DNA of 64,000 bases from Caldilineaceae bacterium (GCA_022821585.1 JAJEDI010000050.1:1-64000), one strand, 5' to 3'. Shown: positions 11,317-27,943, counted from the first letter of the stretch. Numbers and translations are program-made. Notes: generated by a model from the sequence alone, not told the origin.

Positions 11317-12669
11317 TTACAAGCTGCCGATTGCCTTGATCAGGTGGCCGGTGAAGAGAATGGAGCGCATGTAATCTTCGACGTAAATGTTTTCGTTGGG
11401 CGCGTGGAGGTTCGAATTGGGGTTGCCGACGCCGCCGCCGGAGATGCCGGGGATGCCGAAGGTCCCGCACAGCTGGTACATGGGTCCGCCGCCGGCTGAA
11501 GAGGGGTAGACGACAGGTTCTGCGCCGAAGATGTCGCGGGCCACTGAGATGCTGGCCTGGACCCAGGGATGGTCAACCTGCGACCGGTATGGCCAGAGCT
11601 GCGCGAGGAGCTCGACGTTGACGTCGGTAAAGCCACGGCGGTCGAGGTGCTCTCTGACGAGTCGCAGTACCAGTTCGGGGTTCAGGTTGGGGACCAGCCG
11701 GAAGTCCACCTTTGTTGAGGCCTGGTTGGGGAGGACGGTCTTCAGGCCGGGGCCTGTGTAGCCGGTCAGGAAGCCGCAGATGGTGCAGGTCGGGTCGAAG
11801 AGGAGTTGTTTGACGATGTCGGGGCCGGTTGCTCCTTTGAGGAATGAGCTTATGCCGAAGTCCTGCTTGTTCTGCTCTTCATCGAAGGGGATTCCCTGGA
11901 TGTATTCCAACTCGTCAGCGGTGGGCTTAACTACGTGGTCCATGAGGCCGTCGACGGTAATGTTTTCGTTTTCGTCTTTGAGGCTGGCGAGGGCCCAGAT
12001 GAGGCGCCATGCCGGATTGCCGACGATGGGGGCGTTCATGGAGTGGAGGTCGCTGCTTGCGCCGCTGACGGAGAGGCCGAGGTAGGCAATTCCTTTCATG
12101 CCGAGAGAGATGACGGGTCTGCCGGCGCCATCCCTGCGGCCACCTTCCCACAGGCAGGCGTCGGCGCCTTCCAAGAGGCCGCGATTTTCTTCGACGAAGC
12201 GGCCCAAGTTGGGGCTGCCGATCTCCTCTTCCCCTTCAACAATCCACTTTATGCGGAAAGGAAGCTCGCCAATTTCCTGCTGGTAGGCCTCTATGGCCTG
12301 GACGCGCGCCATCCAGGGCCCCTTGTTGTCGGAGACGCCGCGGGCCCAGACGCGGCCGTCACGGATCTCGGCGTCGAAGGGGCCGGAATCCCACAGGTCC
12401 AAGGGTTCCGGCGGCTGGACGTCGTAGTGGTTGTAGATCATGAGAGTCTTGTCGCCGGACCCCATTTCGCCGTAGACAACAGGCGCCCCACCTTCGACGG
12501 AAATCACTTTGGACTCGAAGCCAACGTTGCGCAGCCGGTCGCTGACCCATTCGGCGGTCTCATCTATGCCTATATTCTGCGCGATGATGCTCGGCTTGCG
12601 GCAGAATTCCTGAAGTTCAGCGAGAAAGCGTTCCTGGTTTTTGCGGACGTTGGCTTCGAAGCGGTCCAT
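11317..12669 (-). CDS. M20 family metallopeptidase (CNDP-dipeptidase-like)
   Basis: 450 aa di-zinc peptidase of the M20 family. Motifs in order: HYDVQ (H81, D83), GVSDNKG with bridging Asp114, EGEEEIGS with catalytic Glu148 and metal Glu149, and a late NLHAPNENI His. The dimerisation domain lies between. Length and motifs match cytosolic non-specific dipeptidases / carnosinases rather than ArgE. Start ATG 12669 has aggaga upstream. It lies in a run of minus-strand genes together with a racemase-family and an aspartoacylase-family enzyme, which suggests turnover of dipeptides or N-acylated amino acids. Confidence 0.92.
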   Translation of the reverse strand: MDRFEANVRKNQERFLAELQEFCRKPSIIAQNIGIDETAEWVSDRLRNVGFESKVISVEGGAPVVYGEMGSGDKTLMIYNHYDVQPPEPLDLWDSGPFDAEIRDGRVWARGVSDNKGPWMARVQAIEAYQQEIGELPFRIKWIVEGEEEIGSPNLGRFVEENRGLLEGADACLWEGGRRDGAGRPVISLGMKGIAYLGLSVSGASSDLHSMNAPIVGNPAWRLIWALASLKDENENITVDGLMDHVVKPTADELEYIQGIPFDEEQNKQDFGISSFLKGATGPDIVKQLLFDPTCTICGFLTGYTGPGLKTVLPNQASTKVDFRLVPNLNPELVLRLVREHLDRRGFTDVNVELLAQLWPYRSQVDHPWVQASISVARDIFGAEPVVYPSSAGGGPMYQLCGTFGIPGISGGGVGNPNSNLHAPNENIYVEDYMRSILFTGHLIKAIGSL

Positions 12670-12824: not shown

Positions 12825-13619
12825 TTAATTCAACGAGGGGACGGCCTCGGACGAAACTGGGAAACGAGCGTGCCTGGCAAACGAGAGCTGGAGCTGATAC
12901 TCGTTGTAGTACCTGCGTGTGGCAGCAACCATTTCGATGTACTTAAGCGCCGTGATCATGGGGTCGAGCACAGTGATAGGTACGGCGCGGGCGACGGGTT
13001 CGAGCAGTCCCGACCAGAGCGTGCAGGCGAAGAAGACTGCGTCGGCGCCATCTTCTTCCAGGGCGAGCCTGGCCTGATCTACTCCATCTTCGCGTGCGGC
13101 GCGATCCATTTCCTCGACAACGATACGACGCAGCTCCGACTCATCCTGCTCGAAGAGACGCATGGCCATGTCGGCATCGGGATGGGCGAAATGGGCCTCG
13201 CGCACTGAGGCCAGCCAGGGAGCCATGTTGTATCTGTGGACCAGGTGGTTCCAGGAGCCGCCGTTTTTTCTGCCGGCGATAATCGTTACGCGTCCCAGTG
13301 CGGGCGCGGTGTGGGCCAAGGCTTCGAAGGGGCCGGAGACGGGGATATTGACGAGTCGCTTTGCATCTTCAACGCCCGGGTCGGCGCAGCAGCCGATCGA
13401 AATGCCATCGAACCCTTCTTTCTCGCCCTCGGTGACGGCATGAAGGAGCTGATTTGTGAAGTAGGCTGCCGGGGGCAGGTAGGGTGTCTTTGGCACATCC
13501 TGCAAGCTGCGAACCACGAGTTCGGTGTCGGGGCAGGCGGCGGGCTGCAAGATGTTGTAGGTGTACTCGTCGTACATGTCCGTCCCGAGAGGATTAATGT
13601 ACAGGATTCGGGTTGTCAT
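12825..13619 (-). CDS. Asp/Glu/hydantoin racemase-family protein
   Basis: 264 aa from ATG 13619, which has aaggag upstream; the frame extends to 13820 but without family similarity. The two-cysteine architecture of the Asp/Glu racemase superfamily is present: Cys77/Cys78 in IGCCADPG and Cys199 in FFACTLWSG. The first motif resembles hydantoin and allantoin racemases. The superfamily also includes maleate isomerase (NicE) and arylmalonate decarboxylase, so racemisation is not certain. Its place between the M20 peptidase and an MFS transporter, in the same strand block as NicX-like genes, makes a maleate-isomerase-like or hydantoin-racemase-like role worth testing. Confidence 0.82.
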   Translation of the reverse strand: MTTRILYINPLGTDMYDEYTYNILQPAACPDTELVVRSLQDVPKTPYLPPAAYFTNQLLHAVTEGEKEGFDGISIGCCADPGVEDAKRLVNIPVSGPFEALAHTAPALGRVTIIAGRKNGGSWNHLVHRYNMAPWLASVREAHFAHPDADMAMRLFEQDESELRRIVVEEMDRAAREDGVDQARLALEEDGADAVFFACTLWSGLLEPVARAVPITVLDPMITALKYIEMVAATRRYYNEYQLQLSFARHARFPVSSEAVPSLN

Positions 13620-13713
13620 GAGACTGCTCCTTGCTGAGAAAGGGGCTGCACAAACGGTTAAACTGCCGTGTTGACCAGATAGTCTGAAGTTTAGTCCAAT
13701 CCATCGTATGAAA

Positions 13714-14976
13714 TCAAGTTGAAGGTGGTTGAAAGACGGCGCGAAGCCTGCTTCCATATCGTTGCCTGAACTCCGGCAGGAAAAACGAGCCCAAGCCTGT
13801 GAGCGCGGCAAGGGCGGCAAGGGCGTACATGCTGGCGTTCAGTCCGAAGACATCGCCCAGCATGCCGATTGGCGTTACGAAAAGCGCACCGATTCCCCAG
13901 ACCATACCCATCATCACTCCTGAGGCCATTGCCATGCGGTCGGGGGCGAGCTCCTGGGCCAAAACGGTGGCCACAGGCTGGCTTGCAAACAGGGCCATGC
14001 CGGCGATGACCAACATCAGCAGGCTGAGGATGCCGTCTGTTCTGACGAAGGCGAAGATCGTGGCCGCAGAAAGCAGGAGCGAAAGTGCGATGACCCACGA
14101 GCCGGAGTAGCGGTCAGACAGGTGGCCGCCAAGGAGTCCACCCAGAGCGCCGAACAGGGAGAGCGCGGAAAGGCCGAGGCCGCCGATGACGAGGGTGACG
14201 GCGCGGCTGTCAACGAGAAATATGGGAAGGAAGGTCCTGAAGCCGCCCCAGATCGCAGCGCGGAAGGTCATCAGCACGGCTAGTAGAAGCAGCGGTCCGA
14301 CAAAAGTCTGGGCTGCGGAAGCCAACCCTCTGCCGTCGCCTTCGTTCGATTTGGACGTTGAAGGTTCTTTGGGAACGTCCACGCCGATAAAGTAGTAGAT
14401 GGCAGCGGCGGCAATCAGCCCGAACGGAATCATCAGGTAGGTGGACTCGAGGCCGAACAGGGTGACGACGCCGACGCTGAGGAGGGGTCCGACGGCGATG
14501 CCGATGTTGCCGGCGAAGGCGAAGATGGACATGGCGGTACCGTGGCGGCCGCCGGAGGTGGCGCGCACCATCATGGCGGCGTGGGGATGGAAGATGGCGT
14601 TGCTGAACCGTCCAAAGACAACGCATACCATGAGCAGAGCATAGGTCGGCGCAAGGCCAATGAAGCTCATACCAAGCGCCGCACCGATCAGGCCCAGGAT
14701 CATGAACCAAGCGCGGGGGAAGCGGTCCACCAGCCAGCCGATGAAGGGCTGTACGGGCATGAGCATGAAACTGGTGAGGGAGGTGAAGAATCCCACATCG
14801 GTCAGGCTCAGCGACATTCTGTCGATGAGCAGAGGCCAGAGGGGGATGAGCGTGGCGTAGTACATATCGCCCACGAGGTGGCCGAAGGAGAGAACGCCGA
14901 GTTTGAATTTATCAAGTTTGACGGCCGTTGCGGCTGACGCCGGCGGCAGCGCGCTTACATTGACATCGGAACTCAA
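13714..14976 (-). CDS. MFS transporter, fosmidomycin-resistance (Fsr)-like
   Basis: 420 aa with about 12 hydrophobic helices. The N-terminal stretch GHLVGDMYYATLIPLWPLLIDRMSLS resembles the opening of Fsr-type MFS proteins, and GWLVDRFPRAW is the loop after helix 2. The start is TTG at 14974-14976; no ATG or GTG occurs before the first helix in this frame. The substrate is unknown. A soluble loop near residue 200 (KEPSTSKSNEGD) separates the two six-helix halves, as usual. It lies 94 bp upstream of the racemase-family gene. Confidence 0.85.
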   Translation of the reverse strand: MSSDVNVSALPPASAATAVKLDKFKLGVLSFGHLVGDMYYATLIPLWPLLIDRMSLSLTDVGFFTSLTSFMLMPVQPFIGWLVDRFPRAWFMILGLIGAALGMSFIGLAPTYALLMVCVVFGRFSNAIFHPHAAMMVRATSGGRHGTAMSIFAFAGNIGIAVGPLLSVGVVTLFGLESTYLMIPFGLIAAAAIYYFIGVDVPKEPSTSKSNEGDGRGLASAAQTFVGPLLLLAVLMTFRAAIWGGFRTFLPIFLVDSRAVTLVIGGLGLSALSLFGALGGLLGGHLSDRYSGSWVIALSLLLSAATIFAFVRTDGILSLLMLVIAGMALFASQPVATVLAQELAPDRMAMASGVMMGMVWGIGALFVTPIGMLGDVFGLNASMYALAALAALTGLGSFFLPEFRQRYGSRLRAVFQPPST

Positions 14977-15338: not shown

Positions 15339-16340
15339 TCAGCGTTCGCGGAAGGTGAATGCGATCTGGGTACCTTCGGGCACGACTTGCGTGTAACCGA
15401 CGCCGCCGGTGAATGACCAGCAGTAGCCGTCGTAGGGCATTTTGACTTCCTCGATCAGGTCGCCCCAGACGTCCATCATGTCGACGGCCGTGTCGCCCTC
15501 GCGCAGGAAGGTGCCAGGGGGGTGCTTGATCCACATGAGGCCGCCTTTGTGCGAGGTGAGGCGGTCGGCCATGTAGAAGTCGCCCTGCATGGGAGGCGTT
15601 GCCTGGGGAACGATGTCGCCTTCCAGCATGCCGATAGCCTTCATGGTGTTGGTGATCCCGATCTGGCCGGAGTTCGTGTTGTCCTCCCAGAGGAAGAAAT
15701 CGGCGATCAGTTCGGGCGTCATGGAGGGAATGCCGTGGGCCAGGGAGCTGCCGACGACGCCGGTGGCGGAGCGGCCGGGCGAATCGATGACGGTGAAACC
15801 CCAGGCCTCCGCCATCTTTTCCATCTCGTTGAGTACGTTTTCGTCGGGACAGGCGTCGCGGCGAATTAAGGTGAAGGGGATGGCGTCGGGGGGATTGGAG
15901 TGAACGTCGATGGAGTGGGTGGCCACCTTGAGCGCTTCGCCGATCACGCCGGCCAAACGAAGGGTGACAGTGCCGCCGGAATCGGCCGGCCACATGGGAG
16001 CAGAGGACATGTTGATGCCGTCGCCGGTGGGGGCGATTACGGGGGAGAAGTAGGAGCCGACCTGGAAGGCGAAGGGGTTGCCGACGGTTATGGCAACGAG
16101 GCGCCCTTTCAGCTGCTGGGGGTCGGTGGCGCGTACGGTTTTGAGGAGGGCGCCGGTGCCGTTGATTTCGGTGCCGTGGATGGAGGCGGTGACCACCAAC
16201 GTGGGGCCATCTTCGACGCCATTCACGATAACAACAGGCACACCAACTTTGTTGCCATCGGCCAGGGTGACGTGGCCGAGGTGGCCCTTTACGACTTCAC
16301 CTGGCGCGGCGCTCAGGCCTGCGAGTTCGAAGTTTGCCAT
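15339..16340 (-). CDS. Succinylglutamate desuccinylase/aspartoacylase (AstE/AspA) family protein
   Basis: 333 aa zinc-dependent deacylase/carboxypeptidase-fold protein. Zinc ligands are clear: H55 and E58 in SIHGTEINGT, and H147 in SIDVHSNP. Members hydrolyse N-acyl amino acids or related amides; subfamilies in environmental bacteria are often misannotated, so the substrate is unknown. Start ATG 16340 has a good aaggag RBS. The C-terminal domain (from about 240) resembles the beta-barrel added in AstE-like proteins (PPGTFLREGDTAVDMMDVWGDL). It lies on the same strand as the M20 peptidase and the peptide ABC transporter, suggesting peptide or acyl-amino-acid degradation. Confidence 0.87.
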   Translation of the reverse strand: MANFELAGLSAAPGEVVKGHLGHVTLADGNKVGVPVVIVNGVEDGPTLVVTASIHGTEINGTGALLKTVRATDPQQLKGRLVAITVGNPFAFQVGSYFSPVIAPTGDGINMSSAPMWPADSGGTVTLRLAGVIGEALKVATHSIDVHSNPPDAIPFTLIRRDACPDENVLNEMEKMAEAWGFTVIDSPGRSATGVVGSSLAHGIPSMTPELIADFFLWEDNTNSGQIGITNTMKAIGMLEGDIVPQATPPMQGDFYMADRLTSHKGGLMWIKHPPGTFLREGDTAVDMMDVWGDLIEEVKMPYDGYCWSFTGGVGYTQVVPEGTQIAFTFRER

Positions 16341-16463: not shown

Positions 16464-17801
16464 CTAGTGTGCGCTGGTCGGCTGCAGGTCCGACAAAGTG
16501 TCGGTCGGCCGGTTGGCTGTATTCAGAATTACGACCTCCACAGTATGGGCAAGAATGACTGAAGCCGCTCCCACAACGACGCCAGAGGCCAGCCCGACCG
16601 AGACGCCGATTGTCAACGCCAGTAACATGCTGACCATGTTGACCGCCATACCAAGCTGAATGAAGCGGGTATCATGTCGCTTCATGAGGCGGCCGCGATA
16701 CAGGTTTTGCCAGGCCATCAGAAAGGTGATCGGAACCATGAACTGTGCGCCGAGCGCTGCCAGCGGCTTGATATCGGCAGGAACACCCAAGAGGACGGAA
16801 AAGTAGAAATGGTCCAAGGGCGTGAAAACGAGCAACGCCATGGCGAGGCTGAGGAGCGCGCCGGAAACGACGATGAAGCGACGCAGGGCTCGGTAAGTGC
16901 GTTCATCTTTGAGGAGGGCTATTACGACCTCATGGGAGGCGCGCATCGGGCTGGAGAAGAACATACCCAGGCCGAAAGCGACCGGAAAGGCGGCCAGGGA
17001 AGCGGCGGGCATGGCAGAGCGGGCAATGCCGGCGACGACAAGAGGACGGGAGATGACGCGCATGACGTCGGTTGCGGCCAGGGGGAGATAGAAGCGCCAC
17101 ATTCCGGCGTACGTCATGTCGGGCTGACGTTGATCGGGAGCTTCCTCTCTGCCGAAGATGTGGGTACGAACTATCGGCCGTGCCCACCAGGCAATCACAA
17201 GTGCCTCGACGATTACACTTAGAACCATGGCCAAACCACCGAGCGCGGCGCCAGGCAGGCCTCCGAACCAGACGCCGACGGCCATGGTGGCGGTCAAGGT
17301 GGCAAGCCGGAACATCGTTCCCCAGGTGATATGGCGGGTGTAGCCATGTCTGATGAGGACACCTTGCAGAAAGCGGCGCAGGCCGATGGCGGCGGGCCAG
17401 AGCAGAAGAAGTTGCATTGCGGGACGGGCGGCAGACGCCACTTCCTCCGAGAGGCCGAGGAGGGTCCGGGTCATGACGTGGTAGGCCGGTGTAAAGAATA
17501 GCAGTGCGCTCACGACGGTCATCAGAATCGACAGGTGAAGCATGAAGCGCCAAACCAACTGATACATGGCGCGATTGCGGACGAGGGCCACCCCGGTGCC
17601 CAGCATGTAAATGATGGGGCTTTCCATGAGGATGGCAATTGGTTGGGCCACTCCGAAGGCGGCCAGTTCCAGTTCCGGCTGCGGCAGACGTGTGATGCCG
17701 GCGCTCACCACAGGGTCGGCGATGCTCATCATCAGCCAACTGAGCGCCAGCGGATACCAGAAGGCGAAGATATAGCGCTGGCTCAGTTTTGTGGGAACCA
17801 C
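16464..17801 (-). CDS. MATE/MOP-superfamily-like multi-pass membrane protein
   Basis: 445 aa, about 12 hydrophobic helices arranged as two similar halves (first half from FAFWYPLALSWLMMSIADPVVSAG, second from FYLPLAATDVMRVISRPLVVAG). This duplicated layout is typical of MATE exporters, lipid flippases and ANKH-like proteins. No diagnostic ion-binding residue was identified, so drug efflux is only one option. The start is GTG at 17799-17801, with no ATG nearby upstream. It ends the minus-strand block below the peptide transporter. A 236-bp gap with a long inverted repeat separates it from the upstream SBP gene, so it may have its own promoter. Confidence 0.72.
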   Translation of the reverse strand: MVPTKLSQRYIFAFWYPLALSWLMMSIADPVVSAGITRLPQPELELAAFGVAQPIAILMESPIIYMLGTGVALVRNRAMYQLVWRFMLHLSILMTVVSALLFFTPAYHVMTRTLLGLSEEVASAARPAMQLLLLWPAAIGLRRFLQGVLIRHGYTRHITWGTMFRLATLTATMAVGVWFGGLPGAALGGLAMVLSVIVEALVIAWWARPIVRTHIFGREEAPDQRQPDMTYAGMWRFYLPLAATDVMRVISRPLVVAGIARSAMPAASLAAFPVAFGLGMFFSSPMRASHEVVIALLKDERTYRALRRFIVVSGALLSLAMALLVFTPLDHFYFSVLLGVPADIKPLAALGAQFMVPITFLMAWQNLYRGRLMKRHDTRFIQLGMAVNMVSMLLALTIGVSVGLASGVVVGAASVILAHTVEVVILNTANRPTDTLSDLQPTSAH

Positions 17802-18037: not shown

Positions 18038-19765
18038 CTACTCGCTATCGCGATAGAGGTGCCAATAGCGCGTGCGGGTATCGGGGAAGGCAACGTAGCC
18101 TTCAATATCGGAACCGATGGCCAGATTGAAGTAACGGGCGCCAATCCAGATCCAGGAAGCATTGTCGATATGCAGGCGCTGCGCCTGGCTGTACAGTTCG
18201 AAACGGGCATCTTCATCTACGGTCGTGCCGGCTTGGCGGATCAAGTCATCTGCTTCCTCCAAGCAGACACCGCTGTAGCGATTGCCGTATGAGGCGCAAC
18301 CGAGCAGGATGTCCATGAAGTAGCCGGGCTCGGCCGTCCATGGGAAGAGTGTGTCGAGCGCCGAGGTGTGCGTACCCTGGTTCTTGCCTTCCTGATAGGC
18401 AGCGCGCGGCATGGGATTGATATTGACCGTGATGCCTGCTTCCGACAGGGCGCTCTGAATGATCTTGGCCATGCTCGCCTGTTCGGGCGTGCCCAGGTCG
18501 ATGTTCAGATCGAACTCCAAGCCGTCCGTATAGCCGGCCTCAGCCAGAAGTTCTTTCGCCTTGGCAAGGGCCTCTTCTTTGGGCAGATCGTAGGGCCAGT
18601 AGCTGTGGTCGTAGCCATGTACCATAGAAGGAACCGGACCGAAACTTCGTTCGGCGCTGCCATACCAGACATTTTTGATGATATCGTCATAGGGAATGAG
18701 GTATGACACAGCCTGCCGCACACGCTTGTCGTTGAAGGGTTCCGTGTTGTGGTTGATCGGCATAACGATCATGTCGCCGATGCGCACCTGCTTTGTGCTG
18801 ACATTGGCATCGCTGCGAAGATCGTTGATTTCCTTGGCTGACAGGTCCTGGGCCATATCGACCTCGCCGGCCTTGAGCAGCAGCACGCGGTCGGCCGACT
18901 CGGGCACGACGGTAAAGATTATGCGGCTAAAGAACGGCTCTTTACCTTGCCAGTTGGGGTTGGTGCGGAACTCCATCGACTCGTTGGGGATGCGTTCATG
19001 GATGTAGTAAGGGCCGCTGCTGGGCATGTTGGTTTTGGCGAACTCCTGGCCCCACTTGTCGCCGTCGGCTTCGCCGGCGTCCATGTAGGCCTGGCTGTCG
19101 ATGAGGTAGCCGAACTGACAGCAGCTCATGAAGGGGCGCAGGATAGGCGTCCAATCGGAGGCATTGAAGCGGAACGTGTAGTCGTCGATCACCTCAAACC
19201 CTTTGAGCGGCTCCTCTTTGGTGGCCAGTCGCACCAGGCGGTCGAGCGACGGTGGGACACGCATGTTGCCGCGCCGGTCCTTATAGTACAAGTAGTCGTT
19301 GGCTGTGATTTCATTGCCGGAAGGATAGTGCTTCATGCCTTCTGGCAATTTGAAAGTCCATTGTGTGCCATCCATCGAGATCACCATCGTTTCGGCCAAC
19401 ATCGGCTCGAAATTGAGTGCATCGCCGGTCAAGCTGCCGTCCTCATGCTCGATGATGGCCGGCTGGGCCCAACTGCCGAGGACATTGACTTGGGTCTCTG
19501 TCATGCGCGGGAAGGCGCCAGAGGCGTCCCAGTCGAGGGTAGAGAGATCCTGGCTGACGGCGACGATCAGAGTTCGATCTTCTTCAGAGGCGGTGGCGAG
19601 GGCGGCTTCACGGCCGGTCATCCCGGACGTATCGGCGGCGGCCTCTCCAGTGTCGGCCGAGTCAGCGGGGCCAACAGCGGGGGCACAGGCAGCCAGCAGC
19701 GCCAAGACAAGAAAGCTGACAACAGTCACCATCACGACACGGTGCGACTTCGTTTTGCTGAGCAT
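18038..19765 (-). CDS. Peptide-type ABC transporter substrate-binding lipoprotein (SBP_bac_5)
   Basis: 575 aa from ATG 19765, preceded by aaggag; the frame reaches 19822 without an RBS. Signal peptide with lipobox LAAC (Cys27), a short Ala/Asp/Ser linker, then the DppA/OppA-type fold with typical stretches such as TWTFKLPEG-like (QWTFKLPEGMKHYPSG), SGPYYIHERIPNESMEF and FNDKRVRQAVSYLIPYDDI. It captures substrate outside the cell and delivers it to the permeases encoded upstream in the same operon. Cluster-5 SBPs bind peptides but also opines, sugars, nickel or other small molecules, so a peptide ligand is not certain. It lies 188 bp after the ATPase gene, a longer gap than elsewhere in the operon. 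Confidence 0.92.
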   Translation of the reverse strand: MLSKTKSHRVVMVTVVSFLVLALLAACAPAVGPADSADTGEAAADTSGMTGREAALATASEEDRTLIVAVSQDLSTLDWDASGAFPRMTETQVNVLGSWAQPAIIEHEDGSLTGDALNFEPMLAETMVISMDGTQWTFKLPEGMKHYPSGNEITANDYLYYKDRRGNMRVPPSLDRLVRLATKEEPLKGFEVIDDYTFRFNASDWTPILRPFMSCCQFGYLIDSQAYMDAGEADGDKWGQEFAKTNMPSSGPYYIHERIPNESMEFRTNPNWQGKEPFFSRIIFTVVPESADRVLLLKAGEVDMAQDLSAKEINDLRSDANVSTKQVRIGDMIVMPINHNTEPFNDKRVRQAVSYLIPYDDIIKNVWYGSAERSFGPVPSMVHGYDHSYWPYDLPKEEALAKAKELLAEAGYTDGLEFDLNIDLGTPEQASMAKIIQSALSEAGITVNINPMPRAAYQEGKNQGTHTSALDTLFPWTAEPGYFMDILLGCASYGNRYSGVCLEEADDLIRQAGTTVDEDARFELYSQAQRLHIDNASWIWIGARYFNLAIGSDIEGYVAFPDTRTRYWHLYRDSE

Positions 19766-19953
19766 GTGTGCAAACTCCTTTCGGCGAAAGTGTTTCAGGA
19801 AGCGCCAGCTCGCTGTCCACATTGTCTGTCGAATTATTGGTAGAGGCCTGACAGCTGGTTCAGGACTCTGTTACTTGGCGGCGTTCGTGCAGGGGCCGGG
19901 CTCCGTCGCCAGAATCACAGGGGCGGGTGGCACTGCCATTCACGATTATGCGC

Positions 19954-20985
19954 CTAGGAAAGCTGTGACAGGGCGGAGGCGGTGTTGCTTCCGCCAAGAC
20001 GGATATTCTCATCGACGAGGACACAGGCGGCCTGGTGGGACTCTCCGACTTGCAGAAGCGGTGGTCCCGGTTGCAGGCAGGCGTCTCGCCGGTACGGGCA
20101 TCGGGAATAGAGGCGGCAACCTGGGGGCAGGTCGATGGGACTGGGCACTTCCCCGGGCAGCTTCAGGCGTTCCTTGCCGCGTTGGGCTGGATCGGGAATG
20201 GGTACCGCGGAAAGCAAGGCCTGGGTGTAGGGGTGGGTCGGAGAGTCAAAGATGTCCTCAGTGCTGCCAATTTCGACGATGCGTCCCAGATACATAACCG
20301 CCACTTGATTGCAGGTATGCTTAATGACACTGAGGTCGTGGGAGATGAAGAGATAGGTCAGGCCCATTTCCTCTTGCAACTGGGTAAGGAGGCGAAGTAT
20401 CTGGCCACGAACCGATACATCGAGGGCGGAGGTCGGTTCGTCGAGGACTATGAAATCGGGATGTGTGGCGATGGCGCGGGCGACGCCGATGCGCTGCTGC
20501 TGACCGCCGCTGAATTGGTGAGGGTAGCGCGTGAGGTGATCGGGCTGCAGGCCCACCTGAGAGAGCAGCTGGCGGACCCGCTGGTCCTTCTCGTGCGCAT
20601 TCAGATTGGTGTGCAGATCGAGGGGCTCGCGCAGGATATTGCCAATGGTCATGCGGGGGGTAAGCGAACCGCCGGGGTCCTGAAAGACCATCTGCATACG
20701 ACCGCGCATCTGGGAGACCTGCTCGCTTTTGAGGTCGGTGAGGTTGTGCTCACCCATTCGGATTTCGCCGGATGTCGGTTCGATCAGTCGCAGGAGGCAA
20801 CGTCCGGCGGTCGTCTTGCCGCAGCCGCTTTCGCCGACGAGCCCCATGGTGGCGCCTTTGGGGATGTCGAACGAGATATCGTCAACCGCGCGCAGGCGTA
20901 CATGGGAAAACATGCCGACGCGAATCGGAAAATCTTTGCGGAGGTTGCGGATTTGTACGAATGCTTCGCCGTTGGCGTACGTCAT
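19954..20985 (-). CDS. ABC transporter ATP-binding protein (DppF/OppF-like)
   Basis: 343 aa. Walker A GESGCGKTT, Q-loop VFQDP, signature FSGGQQQR, Walker B FIVLDEPTSALD and H-loop LFISHD are all present. The C-terminal oligopeptide/dipeptide extension is recognisable in PPGCRLYSRCPYRRDAC, which in this family can carry a Cys cluster. It pairs with the DppD-like ATPase upstream (66 bp) to drive the heterodimeric importer. The N-terminus has the usual leading segment (VQIRNLRKDFPIRVGMFS) before the ATPase core. Confidence 0.94.
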   Translation of the reverse strand: MTYANGEAFVQIRNLRKDFPIRVGMFSHVRLRAVDDISFDIPKGATMGLVGESGCGKTTAGRCLLRLIEPTSGEIRMGEHNLTDLKSEQVSQMRGRMQMVFQDPGGSLTPRMTIGNILREPLDLHTNLNAHEKDQRVRQLLSQVGLQPDHLTRYPHQFSGGQQQRIGVARAIATHPDFIVLDEPTSALDVSVRGQILRLLTQLQEEMGLTYLFISHDLSVIKHTCNQVAVMYLGRIVEIGSTEDIFDSPTHPYTQALLSAVPIPDPAQRGKERLKLPGEVPSPIDLPPGCRLYSRCPYRRDACLQPGPPLLQVGESHQAACVLVDENIRLGGSNTASALSQLS

Positions 20986-21051: not shown

Positions 21052-22080
21052 TTAAGCCGTCTCCAACGTCCAGGCTTCTTCGAGCATTTCGCGTTCGATT
21101 CGTCCTGAGACGATGTGGCAACGCGTTGTATGGTTTTTTCCGGCTTCGACCATCTGCGGTTCTTCCTGCTGACAGAGATCTTCGGCAAAGGGGCAGCGCG
21201 GATGAAATGTGCAGCCGCTGGGCAGATTAACGGCGTCCGGCACAGTGCCGGGAATCGTGGAAATCGGTTTATCTATGTCTACGCGCAGGGTGGACGCGAT
21301 GAGCCCTTGGGTGTACGGATGGCGTGGACTTGAAAATATTTCGGCGACGGGTCCCTGTTCGACGACGCGGCCGGCGTACATGACTATGACCCGCTCGCAC
21401 AGCTCGGCGACAACGCCGAGGTCGTGGGTAATGAAAAGGCAGGCTGATCCGGCCGATTTCACGCGTAGACGGATCAGATCAAGTACCTGGGCCTGTACGG
21501 TGACGTCCAAGCCCGTGGTCGGTTCGTCTGCGATCAGGAGGAGCGGGTTGGCGCTGAGCGCCATGGCAACCATGACCCGCTGACACATGCCACCGGAAAG
21601 TTCATGGGGGTAGGCATTTGCCCGGCGGTCGGGATCAGCGATTTCGACGGCCCTCATCATTTCAACTGCGTGGCTGTCGGCAACGCTGCGAGAGCAGCCT
21701 TCCCGCAACTGAATGACGCGGCTGATCTGGTCGCCGACGGTGAAGAGGGGGTTGAGAGCGGCGCGCGGTTCCTGGAAGATCATGGAGATCTTGCGGCCGC
21801 GAATCGTCTGCATTTCAGCCTCGGAGCACGACATCAGGTCCTGCCCATCCAGCCAGACCTCGCCCTCGACGACTTTACCGGGCGCCTTTACAAGGCGGAT
21901 GATGGACTGAGCGGTCACGGACTTTCCGGAACCGCTTTCGCCTACCAGCCCGGTGATTTCCCCGCGATTGAGCCTATAAGAGACACTGTTGACTGCCTTG
22001 ACTACGCCTTCATAGGTGTAGAAGTAGGTGTGCAGCCCCCTTACTTCGAGAAGGGTGTCTGAGTTTCGAACTTCAATCAT
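21052..22080 (-). CDS. ABC transporter ATP-binding protein (DppD/OppD-like)
   Basis: 342 aa. Walker A GESGSGKS, Q-loop IFQEP, signature LSGGMCQR, Walker B LLIADEPTTGLD and H-loop LFITHD are intact. The C-terminal extension SGCTFHPRCPFAEDLC matches the oligopeptide-transporter ATPase tail. The start codon lies 3 bp after the stop of the permease gene, so translation is probably coupled. Together with the DppF-like partner it energises the two permeases. Confidence 0.94.
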   Translation of the reverse strand: MIEVRNSDTLLEVRGLHTYFYTYEGVVKAVNSVSYRLNRGEITGLVGESGSGKSVTAQSIIRLVKAPGKVVEGEVWLDGQDLMSCSEAEMQTIRGRKISMIFQEPRAALNPLFTVGDQISRVIQLREGCSRSVADSHAVEMMRAVEIADPDRRANAYPHELSGGMCQRVMVAMALSANPLLLIADEPTTGLDVTVQAQVLDLIRLRVKSAGSACLFITHDLGVVAELCERVIVMYAGRVVEQGPVAEIFSSPRHPYTQGLIASTLRVDIDKPISTIPGTVPDAVNLPSGCTFHPRCPFAEDLCQQEEPQMVEAGKNHTTRCHIVSGRIEREMLEEAWTLETA

Positions 22081-22083
22081 CGC

Positions 22084-22977
22084 TTACATTTCCATACGCT
22101 TGGGATCGAAGATATCCCTGAGTCCTTCAGACAGTAGATTGAAGCCGAGCACGGCGAGCATGGCGGTCAGACCCGGGAAGAATGAGATCCACCATTCGCC
22201 GCTGACTATGCCGCCGACGCCGTCGTTTATCATCGAGCCCCATTCCGGTGTTGGGATGGGCACGCCGAGGCCGATGAAGCTGAGGCTGGCGGCGACCAGG
22301 ATAGCCCAGCCGGCGTTGAGAGGGGCCTGGGCGAGAACGGGGTCGAGACAGTTGGGAATGAGATGGCGAAATATGAGCCGGTGGGATGGGTTGCCGACCG
22401 ACCTCGCGGCTTCGGCGTAGAAACTTTCCTTCTTGCTTTTCATTTCGGCGCGGACGACGCGGAGGTAGGAGGGGAAATTGATGAACGCGATCACGGCAAT
22501 AACAAGCCAGATGCTTCTCCCCAGTGCGGCGACGACAGCCATGGCCAAGATGAGGGGCGGGAAGGCCTGAAATGCATCGAGAATGCGCATGAGGATATCG
22601 TCGAAACGGCCGCTGAAGTAGCCGGTCAGACCCCCCAGAGGGACCCCGATAGCTATCGCCATGAGTACCGAGGCGATGGCGATGAAGAAGTCGACGCGAG
22701 TGGCGTAGATCACGCGGGAGTAGATATCCCATCCTACCTCGTCGGTACCGAAAAAGTGCCTGATGCTGGGCGGCTCGAACTGCTCGTCCAAGTTGGTGAC
22801 GACCGGGTCATGAGTCGCCAGCAGGGGCGCGAAGATCGCGATCAGGACGAAGAAGAGGATTATGGCGATTCCGACCATCGTCGACCAGTTGCGGCGCAAT
22901 TGGTAGAGGAATCGCTGCAGGCCAGGCGGCAGTTCCGTATCCAACCCCAGTTGCAAGGGCGTTCCCTGTGCGCTCAT
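22084..22977 (-). CDS. ABC transporter permease (DppC/OppC-like)
   Basis: 297 aa with an N-terminal cytoplasmic segment, a first helix (MVGIAIILFFVLIAIFAPLLA), the typical periplasmic loop (HFFGTDEVGWDIYSRVIYATR), and five further helices. The EAA coupling loop is seen in YAEAARSVGNPSHRLIFRHLIPN. It forms the channel with the DppB-like permease. RBS is weak for the annotated ATG 22977; no better start was seen. It is followed after 3 bp by the DppD-like gene. Confidence 0.93.
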   Translation of the reverse strand: MSAQGTPLQLGLDTELPPGLQRFLYQLRRNWSTMVGIAIILFFVLIAIFAPLLATHDPVVTNLDEQFEPPSIRHFFGTDEVGWDIYSRVIYATRVDFFIAIASVLMAIAIGVPLGGLTGYFSGRFDDILMRILDAFQAFPPLILAMAVVAALGRSIWLVIAVIAFINFPSYLRVVRAEMKSKKESFYAEAARSVGNPSHRLIFRHLIPNCLDPVLAQAPLNAGWAILVAASLSFIGLGVPIPTPEWGSMINDGVGGIVSGEWWISFFPGLTAMLAVLGFNLLSEGLRDIFDPKRMEM

Positions 22978-23073: not shown

Positions 23074-24087
23074 CTAGGCGGTAATTCTTGGATCAATGAC
23101 AAAGTAGAGGATATCCACGATCAGGAACACAAGGACGTACAGGACCGCGGCGAGCAGGACAAAGCCCTGCACGGCGTTGTAGTCCTTGACGACGATCGAT
23201 TCGAGCGCGTAGCGTCCTATTCCGGGCCAGGAGAATATCCTCTCGAGCACAACGCTGCCGCCCAACAGGTTGCCATAGACGAGGGCGACGAAGGTCAGGG
23301 GGGCGAGAAGCGCGTTGCGCAGGGCGTCGCGGAAGTAGATCTGGCGATCGGGCACGCCGTTGGCGCGGGCTGCCTGAATGTACTCCGACCCGAGGACTTC
23401 CAGCATTGACGAGCGCATCAGGCGGGTAATGGGGGCAAGGGTAACCAGAGCCTGGGTGATGACAGGCAGGGCCAAGTGTTGTGCGCTGGAGCTGAATGCC
23501 TTCCAGTTTCCGGTCAGCACACTGTCGACGAGGTAGAGGCCGGTGATCCGATCCGGCGGTGAAATGAGCAGGCCGATGCGGCCACTTGGCGGAGGGAAAA
23601 TCCGCAACAGGTAGAACAGGACGTAGATCAGGAGGAGCCCCAACCAGAATGAAGGAACGGACACGCCCAGGAGGGTGATGCCGCGGCTGATGTTGTCGAT
23701 CCAACTGTTGCGGTAGACGGCTGACAGGACGCCGAGGGGAACGCCCATCGCTATCGAAAGGAGAAGGGCGGCAGTGGTCATTTCGAAGGTGGCGGGGAAC
23801 CTCCGAATCAGGTCCTGGGCGACGGACTCGGAGGTGAACCAGGAGTCGCCGAGGTCGCCTCGCAACACGTTTCCCAGCCAGATGAAGTACTGCTCGTGCA
23901 GGGGTTTGTCGAGCCCCAGGCGCTTCGTGATGGCCTCGATTTCTTCGGGCGTTGTGTCGATCCCGACAAACAGGTAGACCGGATTGCCGGGAAGGACATG
24001 GGAGATGGTGAAGATGATGACAGAGACCCCTAAAAGGACAGGGATCAGTTGGAGCAGACGCTTGCCGACGTATTGCAGCAGTCGCAT
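23074..24087 (-). CDS. ABC transporter permease (DppB/OppB-like)
   Basis: 337 aa. N-terminal signature KRLLQLIPVLLGVSVIIFTISHVLPGNP, then a periplasmic region (LGLDKPLHEQYFIWLGNVLRGDLG), helices, the EAA loop YIQAARANGVPDRQIYFRDALRNA, and the family-typical FSWPGIGRYALE near the end. The start overlaps the stop of the upstream NicX-like gene by one base (TAATG), a sign of translational coupling. That coupling physically ties the importer to the three NicX/M29-like enzymes and suggests they act on what it imports. Confidence 0.93.
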   Translation of the reverse strand: MRLLQYVGKRLLQLIPVLLGVSVIIFTISHVLPGNPVYLFVGIDTTPEEIEAITKRLGLDKPLHEQYFIWLGNVLRGDLGDSWFTSESVAQDLIRRFPATFEMTTAALLLSIAMGVPLGVLSAVYRNSWIDNISRGITLLGVSVPSFWLGLLLIYVLFYLLRIFPPPSGRIGLLISPPDRITGLYLVDSVLTGNWKAFSSSAQHLALPVITQALVTLAPITRLMRSSMLEVLGSEYIQAARANGVPDRQIYFRDALRNALLAPLTFVALVYGNLLGGSVVLERIFSWPGIGRYALESIVVKDYNAVQGFVLLAAVLYVLVFLIVDILYFVIDPRITA

Positions 24088-25091
24088 TACTTGAGGTTCT
24101 CCGGAACGATCGTACCGTTTTCCACGATGACCTGATCGTCGACGTAGATATCGTGATCGAGGCAGCAGAAGTCCCAGTGCGACTCGACATCGTTGTCACC
24201 GCCGACCGGCCAGAAGATGTTGCGGCCAAAGGCCAAGAGGAAGTTAGCGTAGTAGGCCTCGGAGTCCATGCCGATGACGTTCCAATCGGCGCGGTGTTCC
24301 GTGCCCCAGCCGACGTGGGCCAGCTCGTAGGAGCGGGGGTCGTTCCATTGGGCGAACCATTCTTCGACCAGACGGGCTTCCGTTCCGCCTTCGAATTTGA
24401 CGATGCGGCCTTCGCGGACGGTGAGCTTTACGGGCTCGGTGGAATGGCGGCGAAACTTCAGGAAGACGGTGCCGGGGTCGACCACGATTGTACCGTCGCC
24501 CTGGCCGGGGGCGGCAAAGAAGGTAACCAGCCCTTGGGGCCAGTGGTCCCATTTGCCCGGTTCGTCGGCGAGGCTGTAGAGCGTGTAGGCCTCGCGGCCC
24601 TCCTTATTGACGGTGAAATCGGTACCGTTTTTGGACGTGATGCGCATCTCCTTGCCTGCAGTTAACAGGGGGACGCCAGCACGGCCGCGTTTGCGCACAT
24701 CCTCGTTAGGGGAGAGCCTGCGCAGAACGTCGATCGGTTCGACAACCATGAGCGCGCGCGTTCCGGACTGACGCGCTTCGTCGTGGGCCCGCGAATAGAG
24801 CCACTGCACTTGCGACATGCCAATAACGAGGTCGGCGGCTTTCCAGGCATCACGAATGTAGGCTGAGGAGATCTCAGGAAGGGTGGACGGGACGGTCATC
24901 TGGATGACTTCCGCGCCGATTTCCTGTCCCGCCGCCATGAATGCGGCAGGGTAAGTAGGGTTGAATCTGGTGTCGGTGAAGAGCAGCAGCGTCTCGTCGG
25001 AGGTGAGCTTGCATCCTTCCAATACTTCGCGAAACAGACCAACTATCTCGGTGGCGGCGTGGTAGGATACTGCGAAATCCTGCATGCGCAT
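24087..25091 (-). CDS. NicX / M29-fold family protein, paralogue A
   Basis: 334 aa. Commonly such genes are labelled leucyl aminopeptidase (M29/AmpS), but the C-terminal half follows 2,5-dihydroxypyridine 5,6-dioxygenase (NicX) closely: ADEPGKWDHWPQG (175-187), AHVGWGTEHRADW (258-270) and SHWDFCC...DIYVDD (304-319). Aligned from memory to Pseudomonas putida NicX, Fe ligands correspond to H259, A287 (Ser in NicX), H305 and D307, so three of four are kept. RBS gaggag precedes ATG 25091. It is translationally coupled to the DppB-like permease. It may be a ring-cleaving oxygenase, a peptidase, or another hydrolase; the substrate is unknown. Confidence 0.78.
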   Translation of the reverse strand: MRMQDFAVSYHAATEIVGLFREVLEGCKLTSDETLLLFTDTRFNPTYPAAFMAAGQEIGAEVIQMTVPSTLPEISSAYIRDAWKAADLVIGMSQVQWLYSRAHDEARQSGTRALMVVEPIDVLRRLSPNEDVRKRGRAGVPLLTAGKEMRITSKNGTDFTVNKEGREAYTLYSLADEPGKWDHWPQGLVTFFAAPGQGDGTIVVDPGTVFLKFRRHSTEPVKLTVREGRIVKFEGGTEARLVEEWFAQWNDPRSYELAHVGWGTEHRADWNVIGMDSEAYYANFLLAFGRNIFWPVGGDNDVESHWDFCCLDHDIYVDDQVIVENGTIVPENLK

Positions 25092-25163
25092 GGATTGACT
25101 CCTCTCTGGCTATATTCATGTCGGACGGCCGCGCCGAGGCGGCACGGAGACCGATGATGTCGT

Positions 25164-26252
25164 TTACTTCAGTTCATCCGCAACGATCTGTCCCTCTTTG
25201 ACAATCAGCTCGTCATCGAGATAGAGGTCGTGGCGCAGCAGGCAGCCACCGGCGTGCGACGGCATCGGCCAGGCAATCGATGGGCGACTCTGGCCATGGA
25301 GGCCGTTGTACGGGGCGAGCGTGGAGAAGATGTTCATGCCAAGGTGGAGCATGATACAGCCGTAATAGCTCTCCCACTCGGCGGTGTTCCAGCCGGGTCC
25401 GCCCCAGGCGGCACTCTCATGCGTGCCCCAGCCGATGTGGGCGATTCGGTAGAATTCGGGGCGTTTCAGCCCTGCGAGGTAGCTCTCGAAGCGGCGGGCT
25501 ACCCAGCCGCCCTCAATGCGGACGATTTTGCCATTTTCGAAGTGGGTAACGACCTGTTCCGGCAGCAGGTCACTGTAGGAACCGAGCAGCTCGCCGAGCG
25601 AGTCTTCGGCGTCCCATACCACCTTGCCGTTTGCCGAGTCCTCGACGGGCGCGGTGGCGACCAGGCCGAAGCCGAAGTTGTCCCAGCGGCCCGGTTCGTC
25701 GACGATGCCGACCTGGCAGTGGCCGATGCGGCCTTCGACGCTGAGGGTCAGGTCGGTACCGGCTTCGGAAGTGATGCGAAGGGTCTTGGCCTCCTGCATA
25801 CGTACGGCGCCGGCGCGTGTGCGGTCGATCATGGGCTGGGTCGGGAACAGCTTGCGCAGGAGCGTTTCTGAGCCGCCGACGGAGCAGTCCCACCAGCGGG
25901 TCCCGCTCATGATGATCTCTTCGAAGACGGGCGTGTACATGCCGATGTCGGCCACCGCTCCTTTGGCCGTGGTTGGCCGGACGACGACGTCCGCCGACTT
26001 GAGAATGTCGGCTACGAAGGAGCCGTCCTGCACGGGGTTGGCAAAACTGGTCCCGTTGGTCCGCCCGGGCATGACGACGCGGACCCAGTCTGCGCCGAGG
26101 ATGTCGAGAGCGTCGCCGTAGGCGCGCATGGCGCGTTCGTCGTAGACGTGCGAGCTCAAGAGGGCGGCGCGCGTGCCGTCCCCGATCTTGCTCAGCGCCA
26201 GGGCTTCTGCGAGTAACTGGCCGAAACTATTGGTCTGTCCTGAGGTCGACAT
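25164..26252 (-). CDS. NicX / M29-fold family protein, paralogue B (metal site altered)
   Basis: 362 aa, the most divergent of three tandem paralogues. It keeps VDEPGRWDNFG (184-194), AHIGWGTHESAAW (271-283) and RHDLYLDDE (340-348). At the positions of the NicX iron ligands it has H272, H303 (Ser in NicX), H333 and G335 (Asp in NicX), so the HxD pair has become HxG. It also carries an insertion before the last motif. It is probably catalytically different or a non-catalytic partner. Strong RBS ggagga before ATG 26252. It lies 60 bp after paralogue C and 72 bp before paralogue A. Confidence 0.74.
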   Translation of the reverse strand: MSTSGQTNSFGQLLAEALALSKIGDGTRAALLSSHVYDERAMRAYGDALDILGADWVRVVMPGRTNGTSFANPVQDGSFVADILKSADVVVRPTTAKGAVADIGMYTPVFEEIIMSGTRWWDCSVGGSETLLRKLFPTQPMIDRTRAGAVRMQEAKTLRITSEAGTDLTLSVEGRIGHCQVGIVDEPGRWDNFGFGLVATAPVEDSANGKVVWDAEDSLGELLGSYSDLLPEQVVTHFENGKIVRIEGGWVARRFESYLAGLKRPEFYRIAHIGWGTHESAAWGGPGWNTAEWESYYGCIMLHLGMNIFSTLAPYNGLHGQSRPSIAWPMPSHAGGCLLRHDLYLDDELIVKEGQIVADELK

Positions 26253-26312
26253 GCTGTTGCTCCTCCAATCGAGCTTTTGCTGCCTATGTGGTGATGGTAA
26301 TCAGTTTCAGTA

Positions 26313-27308
26313 TTACCTCAGATACTCGGGAACGATCTCCTCGTCCTCGTTAACGATCAGTTCGCCGTCGAGATAGAGGTTCTTGTGGCGGCAGCAGAGG
26401 TCGATGTGGGCCCTGGTATAGTTTGTGCCGCCGAGACCGGAGTGCTCGTGAGCGGCGTTGAAGATGTTGCGGCCAGGTGAGACCATTACGGTGCCGTACA
26501 GGCTTTCGGAGTCCATGCCGACGACGTTCCAGAGGGCTCTGTGCTCGGTACCCCAGCCGGCATGGGCGAAGCGGAAGGCGTCCGGGTCGTCGAAGGAGCT
26601 GAGGTAGTCGCGCAGGAGCTGTGCGTCGAGCCCGCCTTCGATGCTGGTGATGAGGCCTTTTTCCAGGGTCATGCGGATTTCGGAGACTGTGTGTCTGCGC
26701 TGCTGCAGGATCACGTCGCCGGCGCGCACGATGTAGGTGCCCTGGGCGGTGTCTTCGAGGGGGCCAGTGGCCACGAGTCCGGCCGGCCAGTGGTCCCAGC
26801 GGCCGGGCTGGTCTGCGAGCCCGACTTGTGCGTGCCCCTTGCGGCCGTCTTTGCGGAGGGTGAAGTCGGAGCCGGCGGAGTCGGTGACACGGATTTCGCT
26901 GGCTTCGGCCATGCGTTTGGCACCTGCGTAGGTGCGCCTGATGACGTCCTCGTTGGGGAACATGCGCTTGAGGTTGGCGACCGGTTCGTGGACCATGAGG
27001 GTGCGCGTGCCAGAAGCGAGGGCTTCGTTGTGGGCGTCGGTATAGAGCCAAGGAATCGAGGTCATGGCGACGACCATGTCTGCGGATATCCAGGCGTCCA
27101 GTACAAGCTGGGCCGAGATTTCGGCGTCGGAGGGGGCGGTGATTGTAAATACCTCCGCGCCCAAGGAAGTGGCCGCGGCCATCATTGCACCCGGGTACTC
27201 CGGAAAGGCAAATTGGGCGTCAGTGAAGGCAAGAATCACTTCGCCTTTCTTTACGTTACACAAGCGAAGATGCTCGGTAAACAGGCCAACAAGATCGGTG
27301 CCCTTCAT
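26313..27308 (-). CDS. NicX / M29-fold family protein, paralogue C (complete ligand set)
   Basis: 331 aa from ATG 27308; an upstream extension to 27398 is in frame but overlaps the promoter and has no RBS, while a purine-rich gaggtga lies before 27308. Motifs: ADQPGRWDHWPAG (165-177), AHAGWGTEHRALW (248-260), VMVSPGRN (274-281) and RAHIDLCC (299-306). Positions matching recalled NicX Fe ligands are all conserved: H249, S277, H301 and D303. It is the promoter-proximal gene of an operon with two paralogues and a peptide-type importer. Best guess is a mononuclear-iron ring-cleavage enzyme for an imported N-heterocycle. An M29 aminopeptidase remains the alternative. Confidence 0.77.
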   Translation of the reverse strand: MKGTDLVGLFTEHLRLCNVKKGEVILAFTDAQFAFPEYPGAMMAAATSLGAEVFTITAPSDAEISAQLVLDAWISADMVVAMTSIPWLYTDAHNEALASGTRTLMVHEPVANLKRMFPNEDVIRRTYAGAKRMAEASEIRVTDSAGSDFTLRKDGRKGHAQVGLADQPGRWDHWPAGLVATGPLEDTAQGTYIVRAGDVILQQRRHTVSEIRMTLEKGLITSIEGGLDAQLLRDYLSSFDDPDAFRFAHAGWGTEHRALWNVVGMDSESLYGTVMVSPGRNIFNAAHEHSGLGGTNYTRAHIDLCCRHKNLYLDGELIVNEDEEIVPEYLR

Positions 27309-27414: not shown

Positions 27415-27943
27415 CGAACGTTTCTTGCTTTGCGTGGTTCAGTGTGAAGAATCGGCTTACGCTGAAAGTTGATGGCCAGCCAAGACGGTCAGCCAAAAGC
27501 TGTTTGCTACCAGTTCGTGCTCAGGGCGCAGGATGGGAGGAGTCTACTTTTCAGGCATAACCAGGTGGTCGAAACCGGGCTTCTGCTCAGTTTGCGCGCT
27601 GCCGTCGTGGCGTGATATTGCCTGAGTCGTGAGGTCAGTCTTGGATATTGGGTACGATTTTAACGATAAAACGCCTTCTGTCAAATGCGCATCTAGTACG
27701 TTCGGACGCCAAGGCCACCGCTCTCCTTTGGTTTCACTGTCCTCCTTCCGTTTCGCGCGGTTGCCGCCATCCAGTCAGTGTTGCCCTTGAAGACAGTCAA
27801 CGCAGTTGCAGTACGGAGTGTGTTATCATGCAGCCTGACTACCTGCTCAAGCCCAGGGAACCATGAGACCAGGTTCGATGAAGGCCCTGAGGACGGAGCT
27901 TGGGAAGTAGCTCAAAGCCTCACCCCCATTAAAGGATCAACCA
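27415..27943. other. Intergenic region between divergent operons
   Basis: About 530 bp beyond the minus-strand promoter with no recognisable gene. Small open frames lack RBS and similarity. A possible extended -10 box for the rightward gene lies at 27821-27829. Confidence 0.5.
27821..27829 (+). promoter_or_regulatory. Possible extended -10 promoter upstream of 2-hydroxyacid dehydrogenase
   Basis: TGTTATCAT contains TG-n-TATCAT, an extended -10 form; there is no good -35. The leader to ATG 27944 would be about 110 nt. Confidence 0.3.

Follow-up and report, generated by a model that had tools for sequence, protein, structure and literature searches.

Here, we analysed a stretch of 64,000 nucleotides from a Caldilineaceae bacterium (GCA_022821585.1, JAJEDI010000050.1:1-64000; hereafter the window), in which three adjacent genes, designated g1, g2 and g3, encode members of a real, conserved and importer-coupled class of the NicX/M29 superfamily. 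A literature search returned no paper on this class, which is thus apparently undescribed. With metal-site columns of the trio and its relatives given in NicX numbering throughout, its proposed marks are His265, Glu293 and an HxD motif (HxG in g2) at 318/320, and we refer to it as the Glu293 class. We suggest, with a probability of roughly 0.4, that the three proteins carry one metal each and process an imported amide, probably by hydrolysis.

The trio is encoded on the minus strand and transcribed in the order g1 (26313..27308, 331 aa), g2 (25164..26252, 362 aa) and g3 (24087..25091, 334 aa), corresponding to copies C, B and A of an initial annotation made from the sequence alone. The annotation had described three homologous genes in a row, the last overlapping the start of a DppB-like gene by one base; gene order and overlap were both borne out, base 24087 being common to the end of g3 and the start of the permease gene. 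Pairwise identities are 46% (g1/g3), 37% (g1/g2) and 32% (g2/g3), and g2 is a divergent paralogue with additional loops close to the predicted substrate site. The motifs DxPGxWD, AHxGWGT and HxD and a DIYLDD-like tail, as previously named, were found in the trio. NicX binds iron via H265, S302, H318 and D320 (PMC7910607), and alignment to NicX placed H249, S277, H301 and D303 of g1, H272, H303, H333 and G335 of g2, and H259, A287, H305 and D307 of g3 in these four columns, matching every residue that the annotation had assigned. Since the local alignments are gap-free around 302 and 318-320, these assignments are safe. The complete set of iron ligands is present in g1 only, while g3 has Ala in place of Ser, and g2 carries His and Gly in place of Ser and Asp.

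Each protein is 31-36% identical to NicX of P. putida KT2440 (PDB 7cn3/7cup), which was the sole significant relative in a phmmer search against the PDB (7cn3; E = 1e-51 for g1, 2e-33 for g2 and 5e-49 for g3). Fold comparison covered AF2 models of g1 (pLDDT 93) and g2 (pLDDT 86), with g3 being compared by sequence; the best PDB fold was again NicX in both cases (Foldseek TM 0.88 and 0.82, respectively), followed by M29 enzymes (TM 0.48-0.62, Foldseek E 1e-11 to 1e-13) and then by CgnE/CgnB. A profile built from the class additionally found PepS (E 8e-8), AmpT (1e-5) and AmpS (6e-4), while no Pfam or NCBIfam model, M29 included, matched the trio. The NicX fold and the relation to M29 proposed earlier are hence both real, and the closest match is NicX rather than an M29 aminopeptidase with conserved peptidase ligands. 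For full-length NicX itself, no obvious structural homologues had been reported (PMC7910607). The trio shares fold, length, H265, HxD and the motifs DEPGRWDH and AHxGWG with NicX. Strict membership in the NicX family nevertheless fails because Arg293, Ser302 (in two copies) and the substrate residues differ; moreover, the trio is linked to an importer instead of nic pathway genes.

One of these differences concerns Arg293, which positions Asp320 in NicX and is replaced by Glu in all three copies (E268 in g1, E294 in g2 and E278 in g3). In a computed profile alignment, the M29 metal ligands E250, E316, E340 and H345 and the H-x-D motif fall on NicX columns 194, 265, 293, 300 and 318-320. The two zinc ions of the crocagin peptide-binding protein CgnB are held by E161, E252, E274, H280, H291 and D293 (PMC10070186), i.e. 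by ligands of the same order. As column 293 holds a ligand in M29 and CgnB relatives, it is an ancestral ligand position that was changed to Arg in NicX. The trio, which has Leu, His and Met/Leu in columns 194, 265 and 300, shares the superfamily fold, the Glu at the E340 position and H-x-D with M29 aminopeptidases (AmpS 1zjc, PepS 4icq, AmpT 2ayi), but lacks the other three ligands of the M29 EEHYHD set and is only ~11-14% identical to these enzymes. Judged from the aligned residues, the predicted site is His-Glu-His-Asp in g1 and g3, with Ser added in g1, and His-Glu-His(302)-His in g2.

A residue survey of 75 clusters at 80% identity put these states into context. The NicX clade comprises 32 clusters with Arg293-Ser302 plus two with Leu293. 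Ala or Gly occupies column 302 in 27 of the 34 Glu293-class clusters; Ala287 of g3 is therefore the usual state, and the Ser of g1 is an exception common to a g1 relative (L077). Gly320 occurs in two clusters, both with a ligand-type residue at 302 (His or Glu), compared to none of the other 73, a coincidence with p = 0.0004 if kinship is ignored and with only two lineages contributing. The second lineage (L043, genome G035) stands on a branch unrelated to g2 and reads His-Glu-Glu(302)-His, likewise without Asp320. From the residue pattern, this suggests that a metal ligand of g2 has moved from 320 to 302. With Arg293 but Ala302, a protein from Proteobacteria (L087:1458-2588) bridges the NicX clade and the Glu293 class.

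The annotation had interpreted the three genes as paralogues with stepwise loss of iron ligands; our phylogenetic analysis does not sustain such a loss from a NicX-like ancestor. In the maximum likelihood tree, the sister group of g1 consists of single genes found in other Chloroflexota and in a Paracoccaceae MAG, that of g3 consists of genes from another Chloroflexota group carrying three copies, and g2 falls on a long branch outside the g1 group, the g3 group and the NicX clade, its exact position being less sure due to the length of the branch. Forcing the trio into one clade was rejected (AU p = 0.0006), which rules out a recent tandem triplication with stepwise decay, and Ala302 is common in the class outside NicX. 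By their sequences, g1, g2 and g3 are old paralogues. That copy B is the odd one was seen correctly.

Within the genus, 12 of 17 genomes carry the trio, although one of them, on a short contig, shows just g2 and g3. Among 29 further genomes of the family, none had the trio, and one contained a single distant copy. The order g1-g2-g3-DppB-C-D-F-SBP-MATE is kept in all 10 relatives with sufficient flanks, so that the same trio-plus-importer arrangement does recur elsewhere. Ligand-column states are fixed in all genus orthologues examined, and the site residues of g2 did not vary among any of the orthologues recovered, even in one with 85% identity. Omega values amount to 0.020 (g1), 0.053 (g2) and 0.044 (g3), compared to 0.146 for the nearby recQ. 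Fixed states and omega values of 0.02-0.05 indicate that the residue pattern of the trio is not a product of chance, and g2 as a pseudogene or decaying gene is ruled out by its omega value and invariant site. Close plasmid copies of g2 were not found; the matches examined were true NicX. Two genomes of the genus without the trio (G012, L044; G010, L045) harbour two other, distantly related superfamily genes with His265 and His293, adjoining SBP-DppB-DppC and two M24 genes, and tandem pairs of M29-ligand-type and His265-type genes recur in other Chloroflexota (L050, L248, L249, L251). A g1-like gene in a Chloroflexota MAG (L079:1442-2518, L150) is interrupted by an in-frame TAG, and a single genome of the Burkholderiales (G467, L145) holds fifteen NicX-family matches.

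Downstream of g3, all on the minus strand, follow the five components of a Dpp/Opp-type ABC importer: a DppB/OppB-type permease (23074..24087; Pfam BPD_transp_1, 1e-44; NCBIfam Opp2B/DppB under the equivalog cut-off), a DppC/OppC-type permease (22084..22977; PF00528, PF12911), two ATPases of the DppD/OppD type (21052..22080) and DppF/OppF type (19954..20985; both ABC_tran and oligo_HPY), and a DppA-like family 5 solute-binding lipoprotein (18038..19822; SBP_bac_5, 1e-73), for which the closest relatives of known structure bind dipeptides or heme. In contrast to the known systems, the importer scores below NCBIfam equivalog cut-offs and is embedded in a NicX-like block. Taking two or more of SBP, DppB and DppC near the locus as an importer, we found it at 17 of 19 Glu293-class loci, 10 of the 19 belonging to the genus of the window, and at none of 56 NicX (Arg293) loci (p = 6e-15); after lineages had been collapsed by hand, 8 of 10 versus 0 of 12 remained (p = 1e-4). 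The coupling proposed in the annotation is thus real and extends beyond the genus. Near Glu293-class genes of other Chloroflexota and of Paracoccaceae, the importer has a different gene order and is accompanied by a LacI gene. Four such loci (L077, L078, L080, L081) consist of a LacI-SBP-DppBCDF unit and one g1-like gene, divergently oriented in L077, which indicates that the link is kept despite changed gene order. A riboswitch that would name the cargo was found neither in the window nor in the 635-base leader.

The block continues on the same strand with a MATE/ANKH-type membrane transporter (16464..17801; Pfam ANKH, 3e-7), a syntenically conserved member, and an AstE/AspA-type (DoeB-like) N-acyl amino acid deacylase (15339..16340; PF24827, 1e-10; omega 0.026), which has a readable zinc motif (HGTE, DVH), matches N-acetyl-diaminobutyrate deacetylase in the PDB (5e-8) and stands next to the MATE gene wherever the sequence of the relatives reaches that far. 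Then follow a syntenic MFS transporter (13714..14976; MFS_1, 2e-39), a member of the Asp/Glu/hydantoin racemase superfamily of the hydantoin racemase type (12825..13820; PF01177, 2e-20), whose true start probably lies further in at about 13620-13730, and a syntenic M20 metallo-carboxypeptidase/dipeptidase (11317..12669; PDB Sso-CP2, 2e-94). A role of the racemase-family gene as NicE-like maleate isomerase was rejected, as its PDB matches are hydantoin racemases instead. In five genomes followed further, the block extends to the MFS, racemase-family and M20 genes, and G004, the most divergent member of the genus, likewise keeps it up to M20, with different genes upstream. Neighbours in other lineages include an M19 and a glutamine-amidotransferase-like protein (L078), M24, octopine dehydrogenase and MATE (L084), creatininase, AroM, M24 and octopine dehydrogenase (L276), two M24 genes (L044), and two Amidohydro_2 genes and one of the PTE family (L043). 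Across lineages, the neighbours of the Glu293 class are hence hydrolytic (amide/peptide) or related to amino acids, and are not nicotinate genes.

What might the trio do? In our favoured model, the importer would take up a small amino-acid-like or peptide-like amide, which the three proteins, probably with one catalytic metal each as far as their residues tell, would open or cleave, either one after another or as a single mixed oligomer. The most likely reaction would be metal-dependent hydrolysis of a C-N bond; the AspA-type deacylase, the hydantoin-racemase-type protein and the M20 peptidase might then complete the breakdown. Gene context cannot prove chemistry, and H265 and the general active-site frame are common to the class and the proven dioxygenase NicX, which speaks against hydrolysis. 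Moreover, since the M29 ligands at 194, 265 and 300 are missing, the hydrolytic mechanism of M29 enzymes is not simply transferable. The same loss largely refutes the reading of the trio as ordinary M29 aminopeptidases, in line with the automatic label 'leucyl aminopeptidase', which we consider very improbable: similarity in fold and profile to AmpS, PepS and AmpT, a dipeptide importer and peptidases close by are in its favour, but the low TM values and the lack of a Pfam M29 match add to the case against it. The annotation had supposed that the importer delivers a substrate for ring cleavage. While the importer link stands, cleavage of a pyridine ring is weakened by the residues that bind 2,5-dihydroxypyridine: E177 is changed to Gln, Gln and Leu in g1, g2 and g3 and H105 to Tyr, even in g1 with its four iron ligands, and H189 is retained in g1 and g3 only. 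Single-query searches of the window's genome (~94% complete) gave no NicC-like match, a weak negative, and only ~25% superfamily matches to NicE and NicF elsewhere, and the neighbouring genes point to amides and peptides. True NicX genes of rhizobia cluster with nicotinate-breakdown genes (mo-hydroxylase, monooxygenase, hydrolase, racemase-family, amidase), and true NicX genes in complete nic clusters (L177:8992-10017, L178:9007-10038) also bear the public annotation 'leucyl aminopeptidase'.

An Fe(II) dioxygenase function of at least one copy on an imported N-heterocycle other than 2,5-dihydroxypyridine, with the AspA-type protein as deformylase/deacylase, would fit to NicX as nearest solved relative, the iron ligands of g1 and a deacylase almost as constrained as g1. 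We nevertheless regard it as unlikely: NicX lost its iron in Ala mutants of the four ligands and also in R293A (PMC7910607), and this very residue is Glu in all copies, the E177 and H105 positions are altered, nic genes are lacking as outlined above, and true NicX occurs in nic clusters without this importer. Similarly doubtful appears an arrangement of enzyme and partner, in which g1 and/or g3 would be the enzymes and g2 (perhaps also g3) a binding or scaffolding paralogue with degenerate site, by analogy to CgnE and CgnB (6zsu, 6zsv). These are same-operon paralogues of the common fold with unlike metal sites, and a second copy with broken metal site arose 3-5 times in crocagin-type systems (PMC10070186); the adjacent superfamily pairs with unlike site residues at L044, L050, L248, L249 and L251 point in the same direction. 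The crocagin proteins differ, however, in the two-zinc site of CgnB, a role in RiPP biosynthesis, a monomeric state, the absence of an importer and a sequence far from the trio. In addition, g2 retains four residues that could bind metal, none of which varies, and compared with the CgnB/CgnE case its change looks like substitution of one ligand by another instead of erosion. Of these readings, we prefer the hydrolytic processing of an amide taken up by the importer, with oxidative cleavage and the enzyme-plus-binder arrangement as serious rivals. A more specific and rather speculative version assumes that g2 is active with a metal site new to this fold, made of three His and one Glu, its fourth ligand shifted from 320 to 302, within a mixed g1/g2/g3 complex for a new type of importer-coupled ring or amide cleavage. 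The 302/320 exchange offers a direct mutational test. As one fold accommodates a dioxygenase of proven ring-cleaving activity, dinuclear peptidases and proteins that bind peptides, separated by countable ligand changes, the His265/Glu293 middle class could reveal how a hydrolase site turns into an oxygenase site or the reverse, and annotations of the 'leucyl aminopeptidase' type would give way to an importer-coupled pathway of uncultured Chloroflexota that can be tested.

Upstream of g1, a sigma-70-like block (TTGACA-N16-TAAAAT, 27657..27684, minus strand), conserved among six genomes and a putative promoter, stands ahead of g1 and of the remnant of a GntR/FCD regulator gene (27466..27687, minus strand; tblastn 59% over 74 aa, internal stop). 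Two relatives (L040, L040:12771-13631; L038/L074) have an intact regulator gene upstream of g1, whereas it is truncated in the others, which kept the promoter-like block; this suggests that local regulation was lost in most lineages.
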